Shown here in pieces: positions 27,914 to 35,764 of a stretch of 64,000 bases of DNA. The notes beneath the pieces were generated by a model that worked only from the letters and a program-made list of their open reading frames with translations, had not been told where the DNA came from and searched no databases. The stretch lies in NCBI GenBank assembly GCA_947497245.1, contig CANMFO010000003.1, forward strand, positions 496,001-560,000, in the 5' to 3' direction. The position numbers and the translations under genes were made by a program. This stretch comes from an uncultured Flavobacteriaceae bacterium. GTDB taxonomy: Bacteria > Bacteroidota > Bacteroidia > Flavobacteriales > Flavobacteriaceae. The number at the start of each line of letters is the position of its first letter. The stretch's first letter is position 1.

Positions 27914-27998
27914 TGCAAATATAATTTCAAATTTACGATATACAAACAAAAATGTAAAAAAAGCCCTAGGGTTGTTCTCCTTTTATGATCTTTGTAGT

Positions 27999-28727
27999 AT
28001 GAACTTGGTTTTAGATGCTGGGAACACCTTGGTAAAGTTTGCGGTGTTCGATACTGGGGTGATGGTGTTCCGTAAGGAAACCTCGCTGGAAAAGGCCGTC
28101 CTGACCGCCAAGGAAGTCTGTGATCTTTTCCCAAAAATAAGCCGCACCATCGTTTCCTCGGTCAATAATCTGGACCCCAAGATCATCGCGGTACTTTCCA
28201 TATTCAGCAAAGTGCATCGACTGGACCATAGCTCCAAGGTACCCTTTAAAAACTCATATGCCACGCCCCGTTCGTTGGGGGTGGACCGTATTGCTTTGGC
28301 CACTGCGGCCTTTTACCACAATCCCAAGGGCAATACCCTGGTGATCGACGCGGGGACATGCATTACATACGACATGGTCAACGATTATGGCGAGTATCTG
28401 GGCGGGGCCATTTCCCCGGGCTTGAACATGCGCTATAGGGCACTTCATGAACAGACTGCCAAGCTGCCCTTGTTGAAGCCCGATGAGCTGCTCGACTTCA
28501 TCGGAAATGCTACGGAAAGCAGCATTCACAGTGGTGTGGTCAATGGTTTGAGGCACGAATTGGACGGGTGCATTGAGCAATATCGTTCGCGTTTTACAGA
28601 TTTAACAGTTATTTTAACAGGTGGGGATGCCCAATTTTTGTCAAAACGATTAAAAAATACCATATTTGCGGATTCCAATTTTCTCCTACTGGGGTTGAAC
28701 TATTTACTGGAATACAACAAGCATTAA
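27999..28727 (+). CDS. coaX: Type III pantothenate kinase
   Basis: Likely start MNLVLDAGNTLVKFAVFD; TPRSLGVDRIALATAA, LVIDAGTCITYDMV, GGAISPGLNMRYRALHEQTAKLPLL, LTGGDA. Confidence 0.95.
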   Translation: MNLVLDAGNTLVKFAVFDTGVMVFRKETSLEKAVLTAKEVCDLFPKISRTIVSSVNNLDPKIIAVLSIFSKVHRLDHSSKVPFKNSYATPRSLGVDRIALATAAFYHNPKGNTLVIDAGTCITYDMVNDYGEYLGGAISPGLNMRYRALHEQTAKLPLLKPDELLDFIGNATESSIHSGVVNGLRHELDGCIEQYRSRFTDLTVILTGGDAQFLSKRLKNTIFADSNFLLLGLNYLLEYNKH

Positions 28728-30017
28728 ATGGTAAAGAATTTTATTATTGCTGTGGTTTGCCTTGCAGCTTCAAGTCTGTACGCTCAAAATGGCACGACTT
28801 CCCCTTACTCGTATTTTGGCATCGGAGAGGCAAGGACCCTGGGTACGGTGGAAAATCAAATGATGGGGGGCATCGCAGTATATGGGGATAGCATTCACCT
28901 GAACCTGAGGAACCCCGCCGCCTATGGTAAATTGGGGGTCCCCTTCAATGAGGATTTCGGAACAACGGTCTATACCGCTGGGATATCGCACAAGGAACTA
29001 CGACTCGAAAGCTTTACCGAACAAGAGAGCAGCCAGGTGACCAATTTGGATTATCTCTCCTTGGGCTTTACCTTGCGAAAAGGCCTGGGAATCGGTTTTG
29101 GCCTCATGCCCTACACCTCTGTCGGGTATAATTTGGTATCGGAAAGCACCAATGACAGTGGGTCCGCGGTGATCAATCGTTTCACGGGTGCGGGAGGCCT
29201 TAACAGGGTATACCTGTCAATAGGCTATGAGGTTTTCGAAGATTTCAATATTGGCGTAACGGGGAACTTCAATTTTGGCAACCTGGAAAGCCAAAGGGTT
29301 CAGAGTGTGGAGGACGTGCAGTTCGGCACCAAGGACCTCCGGACTTCCAAGGTGAACGGCACGGATTTCAACTATTCCCTTCTCTATACACCGGCCATAA
29401 AGGACAAATATACCTTGTTTGCCTCCGCCCGGATCAATACCCAGGCCAACCTGACGTCCAAGAACACCAGGGCACTGGGCTCTTTTTTGATATCCGAAAA
29501 TCAAGACATCGAGACAATCGATGTGGATCTCGATGCACAAGGTCTCCGAAACACCGAATTAAAAGTGCCCACGACGACCAGCATTGGACTCGGATTTGGC
29601 GAGGACATGAAGTGGTTTATAGGAGCGGAATATAGTTTTCAGGGCCTTGGCTCCTTCTCCAACGATTTTCTAAGTGCCGATAACCTGGTATATGAGGATG
29701 CCAGTAGCTATGCCCTGGGGGGGTATTGGGTGCCCAACCGCTCCTCCTTTCAAAGTTATTTGAAGCGGGTCACCTATAGGGCGGGAATGCGCCTGGACAA
29801 TACCGGGATGCTCGTCAACGATAAGGAGATCAGTAATTTTGGCATAACTTTTGGAGTTGGGTTACCACTTGGCAGAACGTATTCCAATTTGAACGTTGGT
29901 TTTGAGGTGGGAAGAAGGGGTACCACATCCGCCGATTTGATAGAGGAAAATTACTTCAAGATCAACTTGGGACTGTCATTTAACGATCTTTGGTTCCTTA
30001 AAAGGAAGATAAATTAA
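28728..30017 (+). CDS. Outer-membrane beta-barrel protein (FadL/OmpP1-like)
   Basis: 429 aa; signal peptide; SPYSYFGIGEARTLGTVENQMMGGIAV; repeated beta strands; ATG abuts the coaX stop. Confidence 0.75.
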   Translation: MVKNFIIAVVCLAASSLYAQNGTTSPYSYFGIGEARTLGTVENQMMGGIAVYGDSIHLNLRNPAAYGKLGVPFNEDFGTTVYTAGISHKELRLESFTEQESSQVTNLDYLSLGFTLRKGLGIGFGLMPYTSVGYNLVSESTNDSGSAVINRFTGAGGLNRVYLSIGYEVFEDFNIGVTGNFNFGNLESQRVQSVEDVQFGTKDLRTSKVNGTDFNYSLLYTPAIKDKYTLFASARINTQANLTSKNTRALGSFLISENQDIETIDVDLDAQGLRNTELKVPTTTSIGLGFGEDMKWFIGAEYSFQGLGSFSNDFLSADNLVYEDASSYALGGYWVPNRSSFQSYLKRVTYRAGMRLDNTGMLVNDKEISNFGITFGVGLPLGRTYSNLNVGFEVGRRGTTSADLIEENYFKINLGLSFNDLWFLKRKIN

Positions 30018-30057: not shown

Positions 30058-31428
30058 ATGAAAACGAAACTCTACTTCACGGCAATTTTGCTTTTAGGGT
30101 TTATGGGAATAAGCAATGCACAGGCCCAAAATCCTGAATGTACCACCAACCTTTCCATATATGTGGAACACGCCAAGGTTAAGAACTATGACGCAGCCTA
30201 TACCCCATGGAAAATGGTGTACGATCAATGCCCGGATTTGAACCGTGCCACCTTTGTTTACGGGGAAAGGATCTTGAAGGATAAGATCAAAAAATCGAAC
30301 GGTACGGAGAAAGATGGTTTTATAGGCGATCTTTTGGTGTTGTATGACAACAGCATGAAATACTTTCCGGCTAAGACCAAGATGGCCGATATGGAAATCA
30401 AAAAGGTGTTGATGAAATATGACAACAAAATGATTTCCAACGATGAAATCTACAGCAATCTACAAAAGGCATTTACCGAGGATAGGGACAATTTCAAAAA
30501 CGCAAAAGCACTTTATCTATATTTTTCGAGTTTGGTCGATTTGAATGCGGCCGGCAAAAAAGACCTTCAGGAAGTTTTCGATGTGTACGATGACGTTACC
30601 GAGAAAATTGAGGAGGAAAACAAGAAATTGACCGCCACCATCACCAAATTATTGCCCAAGGAGGAAAAGGATGAATTGACCTCTAAGGAGAAAAAAGTGC
30701 TGAAGGCGGCAAATACAAACTCCGTGTCCTTTGGTAAGATCGCGGGAAGCATCGATTCCAAGCTGGGTAAATTGGCCGATTGCGGCAACCTGATCCCCTT
30801 GTACCAAAAAAGTTTTGATGCCAAAAAGGGCGATGTGAAGTGGGTAAAACGTGCGGTGGGAAGAATGTTCAACAAGGAATGTACCGACGACCCGATGTTC
30901 AAAAAACTGTTCGAGGCCCAATTGGCACTTGATCCATCGGCCGATGCCTATGTGTACGGAGGTACCCTAAAGCAAAAAGCGGGGGACACCAACGGTGCCG
31001 TTGCCGATTTCAACAAGGCACTGGAACTCGAAACCGATTCGTATAAAAAGTCGAACATCGCATACAAAGTGGCCACCATCTATCGAAGGGGAAGCAAATC
31101 GACGGCCAGAAACTATGCCCAAAAGGCGATCAATGCCAATTCTGCCAATGGGAAAGCGTATTTGTTGATCGCAAGTCTTTACGCAAGCAGTGCCAATGCA
31201 TGTGGCAAGACCACTTTCGAAAAAAGGGCCATTTATTGGAAGGCTGCGGATATGGCGCGCAAAGCGGGCCGCGTGGATCCCTCTTTGAGCTCAAGGGCCA
31301 ACAAGGCGGCAGCCAGCTATTCGGCAAAAGCGCCGACCAAGGAAATGATCTTTACCGAGGGAATGCAGGGTAAGACGGTTACATTCAGTTGTTGGGTCGG
31401 CGGCAGTGTGAAGGTTCCCAACTTGTAA
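30058..31428 (+). CDS. Tetratricopeptide repeat protein (secreted)
   Basis: 456 aa; signal peptide; AGDTNGAVADFNKALELETDSYKKSNIAYKVATIY, YAQKAINANSANGKAYLLIASLY. Confidence 0.78.
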   Translation: MKTKLYFTAILLLGFMGISNAQAQNPECTTNLSIYVEHAKVKNYDAAYTPWKMVYDQCPDLNRATFVYGERILKDKIKKSNGTEKDGFIGDLLVLYDNSMKYFPAKTKMADMEIKKVLMKYDNKMISNDEIYSNLQKAFTEDRDNFKNAKALYLYFSSLVDLNAAGKKDLQEVFDVYDDVTEKIEEENKKLTATITKLLPKEEKDELTSKEKKVLKAANTNSVSFGKIAGSIDSKLGKLADCGNLIPLYQKSFDAKKGDVKWVKRAVGRMFNKECTDDPMFKKLFEAQLALDPSADAYVYGGTLKQKAGDTNGAVADFNKALELETDSYKKSNIAYKVATIYRRGSKSTARNYAQKAINANSANGKAYLLIASLYASSANACGKTTFEKRAIYWKAADMARKAGRVDPSLSSRANKAAASYSAKAPTKEMIFTEGMQGKTVTFSCWVGGSVKVPNL

Positions 31429-31429
31429 T

Positions 31430-32035
31430 ATGACCCCAAAAAAAGTACATTATTTTAAGGGCATTGCCATCTTTTCGATGGCAATGCTTTTTTTTTCATG
31501 TAAGGACGGTTATAAAAGGGTAGGGGAGGAAGCGATCCCAAAAATATACCCACAGGGAATAGCGGAAAACTTCGAGCTTACCTATACCAAGATCTCCGAA
31601 AACCTGGAGTCCGATGATACGGGGGAGTCCAAGGTTATTGCCGTACTCACAAGCCCCCTGAGCAACAATTTCGACAATCTGAAGTTTCCCCATAAGACCT
31701 TTCCCGAAGGGCTCGAGGTGGACTTGTTCGATGAACAGGGAAATAAGAGCGTCATCACTGCCGATTACGGAATTATTTATTCCGCCACCAATTTAATAGA
31801 TTTACAGGGAAATGTGGTGGTGCGGCTTCATGATGGCAAAAAGTTGGAAGCGCCGCAATTGTACTACGACCAGGACAACGAATGGATCTTTACCCAGGAA
31901 AAGTTTAAGTTCACCAATCCGGAGGATGGCACCGTAATGGACGGCGAGGGAATGGATTTTAACAGGGATATCAGCAATTTATACGCACATAAGGTCTACG
32001 GCATAATGACCATAAAAGAAGAAAAAGATGATTAA
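31430..32035 (+). CDS. lptC: LPS export periplasmic lipoprotein LptC-like
   Basis: 201 aa; lipobox AMLFFSC; DYGIIYSATNLIDLQGNVVVRLHDGKKLEAPQLYYDQDNEWIFTQEKFKFT. Confidence 0.75.
   Translation: MTPKKVHYFKGIAIFSMAMLFFSCKDGYKRVGEEAIPKIYPQGIAENFELTYTKISENLESDDTGESKVIAVLTSPLSNNFDNLKFPHKTFPEGLEVDLFDEQGNKSVITADYGIIYSATNLIDLQGNVVVRLHDGKKLEAPQLYYDQDNEWIFTQEKFKFTNPEDGTVMDGEGMDFNRDISNLYAHKVYGIMTIKEEKDD
31461..31496 (+). terminator. Intragenic intrinsic-terminator structure inside the lptC signal-peptide coding region
   Basis: GCATTGCCATC-TTTTC-GATGGCAATGC (perfect 11-bp stem) directly followed by nine T. Confidence 0.75.
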
Positions 32036-32231
32036 GATTTTGAGGTATACCGAATACGTGTATTTGATCGTTGCCCTGTTTTCCTGCTATAGGATCTACA
32101 CGGACTGGAACATGGACCGTCAAAACGCTTATTTATTTGTTTTTTTTGCCATTGTTTCCATAGGGATGTTTCTTTTCAGGAGGAACTACAGGCGAAAATT
32201 CGAACAACGAAAACGGGATAACCAACAATAG
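32028..32231 (+). CDS. Small hypothetical membrane protein
   Basis: 67 aa with two hydrophobic stretches; overlaps the lptC end by 8 bp. Confidence 0.65.
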   Translation: MIKILRYTEYVYLIVALFSCYRIYTDWNMDRQNAYLFVFFAIVSIGMFLFRRNYRRKFEQRKRDNQQ

Positions 32232-32233
32232 TT

Positions 32234-33523
32234 GTGGAAACGTCAATTGTGATCATTGTACTTTCATTGATTTTTTCGGCCTTTTTTTCCGGCATGGAAA
32301 TCGCCTTTGTGTCCGCCAACAAAATCCATATTGAAATAGAGAAGAAACAAGAAGGTTTTTTGGCCAACGTGCTTACCCGACTTACCAGAAAACCCTCGAA
32401 GTTTATTGCGACCATGCTTATCGGCAACAACATTGCCCTGGTGGTCTATGGGTTTTTTATGGGGGAGCTCCTTATGGATTGGTTTCGGGAAATGGGGCCT
32501 TCCGCAAGCACTTTTATTGATTTGTTGCGTACCGACTTCAGTCTGTTGACACAAACCATTATCTCCACCCTGGTCATTTTGTTGACCGCTGAGTTTCTCC
32601 CCAAGGTGCTGTTCCAGATCTATTCGAACACCCTTTTAAAAGTTCTGGCCGTGCCCGCTTATCTTTTTTATGTGCTGTTTTCGCTGATATCGGATTTTGT
32701 CATTAAGATTTCGGACGTTATTTTGAAGGCCTTTTTCAGGACGGATGGCGACGAGGTACAGTTGGCCTTCAGCAAAATAGAATTGGGGGATTACATCACG
32801 GAACAAATGGAGACGGTCGAGGAGGAGGATGAGGTGGATTCTGAAATACAAATATTTCAGAACGCCCTCGAATTTGCCGAGGTCAAGGCAAGGGAAGTTA
32901 TGGTACCCAGGACGGAAATAACCGCGGTGGAACTGCATGAAACACCAAAAACCCTTGCCAAATTGTTCACGGAAACCGGCTATTCAAAAATTTTGATCTA
33001 TAAGGGCACCATCGACAATATCATAGGATACGTGCATTCTTATGAGCTTTTTAAAAAACCGAAGACGGTCAAAAGTATTCTGCTACCGGTCGAATTTGTA
33101 CCGGAGACAATGCTGATCCAGGACATTTTGAACGTCCTTACCAAAAAAAGGAAGAGCATTGCCGTGGTACTGGACGAATACGGCGGCACCGCGGGCATTA
33201 TGACCGTGGAGGACATAATCGAGGAACTTTTTGGCGAAATCGAGGATGAACACGATACCACCGACCTGATCGAGGAACGGTTGGGCGAAAGCACCTATAA
33301 GCTGTCCGCACGTCTGGAGGTGGACTATCTCAACGAAGCCTACCGATGGGAATTGCCCAAGGGGGATGAATATGAAACCTTGGGAGGTTTGATAGTTAAC
33401 GAAACGGGGGAGATACCCGAACAGGATTCCGAGATCAGGGTAGAAAACTTCAAATTTGTCATTTTGGAGGTCTCCAGTACCAAAATCGATTTGGTATCAC
33501 TTGAAATCCTTGAAAAAGAATAA
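32234..33523 (+). CDS. CNNM/CBS-pair hemolysin-family membrane protein (HlyC/CorC-like)
   Basis: 429 aa; FSGMEIAFVSANK, EVMVPRTEITAVE, VLDEYGGTAGIMTVEDIIEELFGEIEDE; GTG start. Confidence 0.92.
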   Translation: METSIVIIVLSLIFSAFFSGMEIAFVSANKIHIEIEKKQEGFLANVLTRLTRKPSKFIATMLIGNNIALVVYGFFMGELLMDWFREMGPSASTFIDLLRTDFSLLTQTIISTLVILLTAEFLPKVLFQIYSNTLLKVLAVPAYLFYVLFSLISDFVIKISDVILKAFFRTDGDEVQLAFSKIELGDYITEQMETVEEEDEVDSEIQIFQNALEFAEVKAREVMVPRTEITAVELHETPKTLAKLFTETGYSKILIYKGTIDNIIGYVHSYELFKKPKTVKSILLPVEFVPETMLIQDILNVLTKKRKSIAVVLDEYGGTAGIMTVEDIIEELFGEIEDEHDTTDLIEERLGESTYKLSARLEVDYLNEAYRWELPKGDEYETLGGLIVNETGEIPEQDSEIRVENFKFVILEVSSTKIDLVSLEILEKE

Positions 33524-33643: not shown

Positions 33644-35764
33644 ATGGCAATTTTAGAGAATATTAGAAAACGTACCACCATTTTGATCCTGATCATCGGG
33701 ATGGCCCTGTTCGCTTTTGTAATATCCGGAGTCTTTACCAGCGGAACCCTGGGGGGGGGAGGAAAGATCGGATCTACCATAGCGGAGATCAACGGTGAGG
33801 AGATTGCCATAGATGAGTTCCGTCAGAAGGTGGAAAACGCTCAGCGGAACTCCCCCCCGGCGACCTCTACCATTCAAATTGTGAACCAGGTTTGGGACCA
33901 ACAGCTTCGCAGCAGTATATTGGGCCAGCAGTTCGAAGAACTGGGCGTGGACATAGAACAAGATCAGATCATCAATTTCCTCAAAACCTCGGGCTATGCC
34001 CAAAGCCCGGAATTTCACAATGCGGATGGCATTTTCGATGAGACGGTATTCAGGAATGCCGTGGCGAATTGGAGGGAAACCGATGCGCTCCGGTACGACA
34101 GTTGGTTGCAGACTGAAAAGGCCATTATCCAACTGGCCAAGGAACAAACCTATTTTAACCTGATCAAGGCCGGTGTCGGGGCCACCTTGAAAGAGGGGGA
34201 GCTCGATTACCGTTTGGCCAACGAGAAAATGGACGTGAGCTATGTGCGGGTGCCCTTCAGTTCGATACCGGATAGCAGCATCACCATTACCAAAAGTGAG
34301 ATCGCGACGTTCATCAACGACCATAAAGAGGATTTCCAACAGGACGAGGCACGGGATATCCAGTTTGTCTATTTTGAGGAAAAACCCTCGGAGACCGATG
34401 TCAAGGGCGTGGAAGATGCCATCACTAAACTCATGGACGATTCTGTGGAATACAATGAATTGACGGATAAAAACGATACGATACAAGGGTTTCGCAACAC
34501 TTCGGATATTGCCGCCTTCCTGGACCGGAATTCGGATCTGAAGTTCGATACCATTTACAGGGCCAAAAAAGAATTGTCGCCCATATTCGCGGATACCCTG
34601 ATGACCCTGCAAGTTGGCGGCGTTTACGGGCCCTATCGCGATGGGGACTATTTCAAGGTGACCAGAATGGTGGGCAGAAGATCAAATGGTTCCGTAAAGG
34701 CCAGCCACATACTGATTGCCTATGAAGGTGCCCAACGGGCCAATCCGGAAGTAAAACGCACCAAGGAGGAAGCGGAAAAGAAAGCAAATGAATTGTTGCG
34801 GGAAGCCAAAAAATCCGGATCCGTTTTTGCGGAACTGGCGCGGGACAATTCAGATGGACCTTCGGCACCCAATGGAGGTGACCTGGGTTACTTCCAAAGG
34901 GGGGTCATGGTGCCCAAATTCAACGACTTTGCTTTTGGAAACCCTACGGGAACGATCGGCCTGGTGGAAACTGATTTTGGATACCACGTCATCAAGATAG
35001 ATGATAAACAGGACATCGTACAGATTGCCGAACTGGCCAGGGAAGTAGAACCCTCCGAAGAAACAATCAACGGACTCTTTACGGATGCCACCAATTTCGA
35101 GTTGGATGCCATTGCGACCGATATCGCATTTTCGGATTTTGCAAAGGAAAAGGAATACCTTATCCGTCCGGTAAACAGGATCAAGGCCATGGATGAGAAC
35201 CTGCCCGGTCTGGGTGCACAGCGGGCCATTGTGCAATGGGCCTTCAACGGAGAGACCACACCCGGGGAGATCAAAAGATTCAACATTAACAATGGCTATG
35301 CGGTGGTACAGCTCACCGGCAAATACGATACGGGCCTGATGTCAGTGGAGGACGCCTCCGCCACCGTACTTCCAAAGATCAGGAAAGAGCGCAAAGCGGC
35401 CCAGATCATTGGGGCGAACAAAGGAAAGACAATGGAAGACCTGGCGAAGGACAACAATGTAAGTGTTTCCAATGCCACTGCCCTGACCGTTAAATCGCCT
35501 ACTATTCCGGGAGCGGGCTCCGAACCTACGGTAGTGGGAACCGCCTTCGCCATGACCGAGGGCGAAACCTCTGGATTGATCGAGGGAAACTCCGGAATCT
35601 TTATGGTCACCGTGACCAAAAAACAAGAGCCCGTAAAGCTCGAGAATTACAGCACCTATGCCAGTACCTTGAAAACGGCCAATGCCGGAAAAGTGAATAC
35701 GGCCGTTTTGGAAGCCTTAAAGAAAAAAGCGGAGATCGAGGACAAAAGGAACATCTTTTTCTAA
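33644..35764 (+). CDS. Peptidylprolyl isomerase, PpiD/SurA-like
   Basis: 706 aa; N-terminal TM; AEINGEEIAIDEFRQKVE; parvulin domain SHILIAYEGAQ...GDLGYFQRGVMVPKFNDFAF...GYHVIKI. Confidence 0.92.
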   Translation: MAILENIRKRTTILILIIGMALFAFVISGVFTSGTLGGGGKIGSTIAEINGEEIAIDEFRQKVENAQRNSPPATSTIQIVNQVWDQQLRSSILGQQFEELGVDIEQDQIINFLKTSGYAQSPEFHNADGIFDETVFRNAVANWRETDALRYDSWLQTEKAIIQLAKEQTYFNLIKAGVGATLKEGELDYRLANEKMDVSYVRVPFSSIPDSSITITKSEIATFINDHKEDFQQDEARDIQFVYFEEKPSETDVKGVEDAITKLMDDSVEYNELTDKNDTIQGFRNTSDIAAFLDRNSDLKFDTIYRAKKELSPIFADTLMTLQVGGVYGPYRDGDYFKVTRMVGRRSNGSVKASHILIAYEGAQRANPEVKRTKEEAEKKANELLREAKKSGSVFAELARDNSDGPSAPNGGDLGYFQRGVMVPKFNDFAFGNPTGTIGLVETDFGYHVIKIDDKQDIVQIAELAREVEPSEETINGLFTDATNFELDAIATDIAFSDFAKEKEYLIRPVNRIKAMDENLPGLGAQRAIVQWAFNGETTPGEIKRFNINNGYAVVQLTGKYDTGLMSVEDASATVLPKIRKERKAAQIIGANKGKTMEDLAKDNNVSVSNATALTVKSPTIPGAGSEPTVVGTAFAMTEGETSGLIEGNSGIFMVTVTKKQEPVKLENYSTYASTLKTANAGKVNTAVLEALKKKAEIEDKRNIFF

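Follow-up and report, generated by a model that had tools for sequence, protein, structure and literature searches.

The lptC gene of an uncultured Flavobacteriaceae bacterium carries, within the codons of its lipoprotein signal, a perfect hairpin followed immediately by a T tract, and both the pairing and the tract are under selection at the nucleotide level. The element, which lies in a window of 64,000 nucleotides (the whole stretch of DNA that was analyzed), probably represents an intrinsic (Rho-independent) terminator that overprints the codons of the signal peptide; it would end most coaX-bamG-TPR transcripts and act as a partial terminator for lptC. From its structure, position and conservation, we infer that transcription is terminated at this site, with an efficiency that may be modulated by lptC translation. 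The element would represent a natural, deeply conserved terminator written inside protein-coding sequence.

The genes around the element are all oriented in one direction on the forward strand. The gene coaX for type III pantothenate kinase (27972–28727) is followed by bamG (28728–30017; NCBIfam NF053685), by a gene for a TPR-repeat protein directly 5' of lptC (30058–31428) and by lptC itself (31430–32035), which encodes a lipoprotein of 201 aa (TIGR04409, 2e-15; PF06835, 4e-9). On the 3' side of lptC, an ORF for a 67-aa membrane protein overlaps the lptC stop codon (32028–32231) and precedes a CNNM/CorC-GldE-like gene (32234–33523) and a gene for a SurA/PpiD-type peptidyl-prolyl isomerase (33644–35764). 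lptC is an outer-membrane assembly gene, and its ATG at 31430 is positioned one nucleotide past the stop codon of the TPR gene (TAA, 31426–31428). The Bacteroidota promoter motif TAnnTTTG was matched once between 28500 and 32300, at 29834 inside bamG, and not near lptC.

The hairpin (31461–31487, forward strand; lptC codons 11–20) starts at the 33rd nucleotide past the TPR stop codon. Its 11-bp perfect stem is formed by the 5' arm GCATTGCCATC (31461–31471) and the 3' arm GATGGCAATGC (31477–31487), separated by the 5-nt loop TTTTC (31472–31476). The T9 tract (31488–31496), which provides codons for L-F-F/S, follows directly on the forward strand; the AAGG preceding the 5' arm (31457–31460) can pair with the first T's, and with this AAGG/CTTT extension the stem comprises 15 pairs, G-U included. 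A G+C-containing hairpin with a U tract immediately 3', as in intrinsic terminators, was thus found. Translation in frame from the ATG at 31430 across the element yielded G-I-A-I-F-S-M-A-M-L-F-F-S-C, i.e., the lipoprotein signal of LptC. An earlier note, made from the letters alone, had described the hairpin with its T9 tract at 31461–31496 and its overlap with the signal codons; the former was present exactly as given, and the latter agreed with the translation.

Using our own cut-offs for terminator calls, a perfect stem of ≥11 bp with ≥7 T in the following nine positions was found twice in the 64 kb window, as compared to 0.0 times per window in 100 dinucleotide-shuffled windows. Thus, the hairpin and T tract of lptC are not due to chance. 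The other perfect stem of at least 11 bp with a T-rich tail (ATCAATAAGTT/AACTTATTGAT) was located on the reverse strand, at about 118–142 in forward coordinates (63883 of the reverse complement). A loose generic terminator scan of the window returned 13 matches, with 14.7 expected, so weak terminator-like matches are meaningless by themselves.

Conservation was analyzed in 80 unselected lptC loci of close relatives (Maribacter, Zobellia, Eudoraea, Arenibacter, Muricauda and others), with the lipobox cysteine as the anchor. Nearly all of them form the same hairpin and T run. Counting the window, 71 of 81 close loci passed the strict terminator rule, and the remaining 10 passed with a relaxed tail rule. 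Across the loop, the stem nucleotides changed in pairs, and so did the encoded amino acids: besides ATG..ATG (M..M), the combinations ACG..GTG (T..V), GTG..ACG (V..T, locus L030), CTG..GGG (L..G, L050 and L079) and GCA..GTG (A..V, L049) were observed. The earlier note had reasoned that relatives keeping the amino acids and losing the pairing would speak against its proposal; the reverse was found, with the amino acids changing and the pairing staying. RNA pairing drives paired amino-acid changes in the LptC signal peptide, so that one sequence carries two messages.

This pattern extended across the order, for which 398 Flavobacteriales genomes were searched and 100 neighborhoods were fetched. 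The hairpin recurred in several families and in many genera, and its stem varied considerably (L095, L102, L107, L129, L138). In an alignment of 53 sequences chosen for having hairpins, 13 of 16 pairs varied on both sides, with 113 double-changed cells compared to 33 ± 6 after shuffling. A further set of 181 Flavobacteriales lptC loci was taken regardless of the hairpin and evaluated by simple parsimony on a tree built from the BamG and TPR proteins. Here, 61 compensatory double changes were mapped to tree branches, as compared to 6–14 for pairings slid by 1–3 columns, and 83% of the cells were paired (37–53% for slid pairings); a few of the 181 loci seem to be one genome sampled twice (e.g., L007 and L082, whose contigs have equal lengths), which added no tree changes. 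A strong terminator at the start of lptC was present in 147 of the 181 loci. Losses were seen in L093, L134, L135, L141, L200 and some genomes without the TPR gene. Covariation thus places the hairpin under selection and bears out the proposal of the earlier note that coding sequence and a terminator-type hairpin share the same bases.

In order to separate this selection from that on the protein, codons were swapped synonymously with local codon usage in 155 loci, with 300 trials per locus. An equally strong hairpin was never reached (0/300) in 101 of the 155 loci and was reached in at most 1% of the trials in 136; for the lptC of the window, 2 of 300 recodings matched the observed strength. 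Control coding windows of 140 nt inside upstream genes contained strong terminators in 20 of 1989 cases. It could be argued that the hairpin is a by-product of a constrained signal peptide that is palindromic by chance encoding, and the peptide itself does favor one, as about 12% of the synonymous recodings still yielded a strong hairpin. However, recoding rarely attains the observed hairpin strength, paired amino-acid changes leave the pairing intact, and the covariation in both the 53-sequence alignment and the 181-locus tree contradicts this explanation, which is very improbable.

The T tract was examined by its codon usage, again anchored on the lipobox cysteine. Phenylalanine was encoded by TTT rather than TTC at a ratio of 112:4 within the tract, as compared to 475:137 further downstream, and CTT accounted for 64 of 80 leucine codons in the tract, but only for 120 of 763 downstream. 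Thus, TTT and CTT are strongly favored in the relatives at this position. An earlier version of this test was discarded since its loci had been picked on T content, which introduces bias. As in an intrinsic terminator, stem and U tract are both selected at the nucleotide level, and this combination points to termination rather than to a bare hairpin. A structural mRNA element that does not terminate transcription, protecting the 3' end of a processed TPR mRNA or tuning the translation start or signal-peptide elongation of lptC, is therefore unlikely. A hairpin 30 nt past the start codon could influence either process, and a few lineages have retained the stem better than the tail, e.g., Muricauda-like loci with tails such as ATCCTTTTTATA. 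However, the selection on the T tract exceeds the amino-acid needs, stem and tract are tightly adjacent, and other orders have non-homologous stem-plus-T elements at this junction, in intergenic position if a spacer exists.

The position of the element is also in line with termination. In Flavobacteriales with the TPR gene 5' of lptC, the stem started at a median of 32 nt past the TPR stop codon and 31 nt past the lptC ATG. In E. coli, terminators evade the terminating ribosome only if they are more than 27 nt past the stop codon, and translation reduced the efficiency of a terminator 30 bp past an AUG by only about 10% (Li et al., PMC4824070). The natural lptC element satisfies both of these E. 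coli limits. Being mostly 27–35 nt past the upstream stop codon, it would be just clear of a ribosome held at the TPR stop codon, and at about 31 nt past the lptC ATG it would come too early for a new lptC ribosome to often catch the RNA polymerase. The coaX-bamG-TPR transcripts would then mostly end at about 31490–31496. Since the lptC start codon lies 5' of the hairpin, every LptC-encoding transcript, from any promoter, must read through, and the expression of lptC, and possibly of the downstream genes, may be set below that of the upstream genes. The overprinted terminator would come at a cost, which counts against it, as terminated RNAs would carry the lptC start without a stop codon and ribosome rescue would be expected.

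The earlier note had gone further and proposed an attenuator gated by translation, which refines the terminator explanation rather than opposing it. Termination would be the default; a prompt lptC ribosome would cover the 5' arm and melt the hairpin, RNA polymerase would continue, and lptC and the distal genes would be transcribed in proportion to lptC translation. Such gating is quite possible, but short of probable. As in ribosome-mediated attenuators of the pyrBI/trp type, the reading frame overlaps the hairpin, and it is open through the hairpin in nearly all loci. The distance between ATG and hairpin is fixed (median 31 nt) even with the upstream stop codon 79 nt away; however, a hairpin locked in codons holds its distance to the ATG regardless. 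The loss of only about 10% efficiency 30 bp after an AUG in E. coli (PMC4824070) also argues against gating. From 150 nt 5' to 150 nt 3' of the TPR stop codon, no conserved anti-terminator was found, and near the junction only the terminator hairpin was conserved. A competing anti-terminator is required for the trp type, not for the pyrBI type. The lack of a conserved competing structure supports the terminator, and any regulation must be exerted by a ribosome or a protein. The one other helix predicted to be conserved in this span, at 31393–31425 within the 3' end of the TPR gene (codons of CWVGGSVKVPNL), had no contact with the terminator and is probably the result of protein conservation.

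The occurrence of the terminator was compared with gene order in 40 regions outside Flavobacteriales. Of the 16 lineages with the TPR gene 5' of lptC, 9 had a strong terminator at the junction, as compared to 0 of the 24 lineages without this gene there (Fisher p = 4e-5). The stems of these nine were mutually unlike, i.e., non-homologous, and eight of the nine seem to lie inside the lptC frame (the start codon of L156 being uncertain). In L117 (247 nt spacer) and L152, where lptC is detached, a terminator is located between the genes instead, and none is present in lptC. The function thus seems to be tied to the junction that follows the TPR gene. The recurrence and the intergenic placement indirectly support the claim of the earlier note that the upstream operon is terminated here; the coding sequence seems to host the terminator where a spacer is absent. 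The absence of a recognizable terminator at 7 of the 16 TPR-lptC junctions outside the order counts against this terminator reading.

In one genus (g2, Flavobacterium-like; L092, L097, L098, L100, L120, L121, L182–L211), lptC follows bamG without an intervening TPR gene in many genomes, and their hairpin is partly decayed. Among loci without the TPR gene, in which bamG is the immediate 5' neighbor and a spacer of about 50 nt is frequent, the hairpin was kept in 26 of 36 at a median of 31 nt past the ATG. Pairing was reduced to 68%, and double changes were barely above the slid controls. The idea that the hairpin merely follows the TPR gene was rejected as a full account, since these genomes often keep it, though decayed. 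The partial decay upon loss of the TPR gene supports the overprinted terminator, while the retention of the hairpin despite a free spacer speaks against it and fits a role linked to lptC or inheritance equally well.

When 864 kb of the genome that contains the window were scanned with a strict rule, start-proximal terminators inside long genes proved to be rare. A second case, which strengthens the terminator reading of lptC, was found in rnc, encoding RNase III, directly after fabF (L226:13312-14049, G000:C3:189312; fabF was named by its C-terminal GFGGHN motif, judged by eye). Of the 30 rnc loci of the order (L242–L271), 27 carried a hairpin and T tract near +25 of rnc; L266 and L268 had no hairpin, and the weak call in L269 was a different element. 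The rnc stems differ between genera, and synonymous recoding matched them in at most 1 of 200 trials. RNase III itself could cut the rnc hairpin. An 8-bp hairpin followed by TTTT was also observed 22 nt past the ATG, in the signal peptide of a 1641-codon ORF (G000:C2:8531, L282:8531).

It is conceivable, but doubtful, that Bacteroidota share a general device, in which spacer-less junctions place a terminator within the initial ~25 codons of the gene that follows, shaping its N-terminus, with read-through set by its translation. This device would separate the strongly expressed bamG-TPR and fabF from the weakly expressed lptC and rnc, the difference in expression being an assumption. If true, LPS export and RNase III levels would be tied to translation initiation. 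The lptC junction offers a ready test of coupling between RNA polymerase and ribosome in an understudied phylum, and annotation tools that seek terminators solely between genes would miss real ones.

No Rfam family matched the site, where only a sub-threshold match to mir-5681 was obtained (21.9 bits; gathering threshold 88), and among open-licence papers none on lptC terminators in flavobacteria was found. A close natural parallel is provided by the pyrBI attenuator of E. coli, in which a ribosome near behind RNA polymerase can prevent formation of the terminator hairpin. As in pyrBI, an intrinsic terminator would lie in a translated frame and a close ribosome may block it, but the pyrBI frame encodes the leader peptide pyrL, whereas the lptC element occupies codons of a functional protein, with no pause site or nucleotide sensing identified. 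The frd terminator of E. coli doubles as the ampC attenuator, one terminator ending the upstream operon and attenuating the next gene; it precedes the start codon, within the ampC leader, whereas the lptC element lies after the start codon, in the gene. Premature termination early in a transcription unit would be shared with the attenuators screened by Naville and Gautheret (PMC2965389), whose screen discarded terminators closer to the upstream than to the downstream gene and whose text mentions neither lptC nor Bacteroidetes. 3' ends inside ORFs were described by Adams et al. (PMC7815308), albeit for E. coli, and a Flavobacterium psychrophilum transcriptome paper recognizes partial termination as a class (PMC9723704). 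The same geometry is found in the artificial tR2 terminator of plasmid W48 (Li et al., PMC4824070, where pyrBI is also mentioned), about 30 nt past a start codon and more than 27 nt past an upstream stop codon. While tR2 in W48 was engineered and studied in E. coli, the lptC element is natural and conserved across an order.
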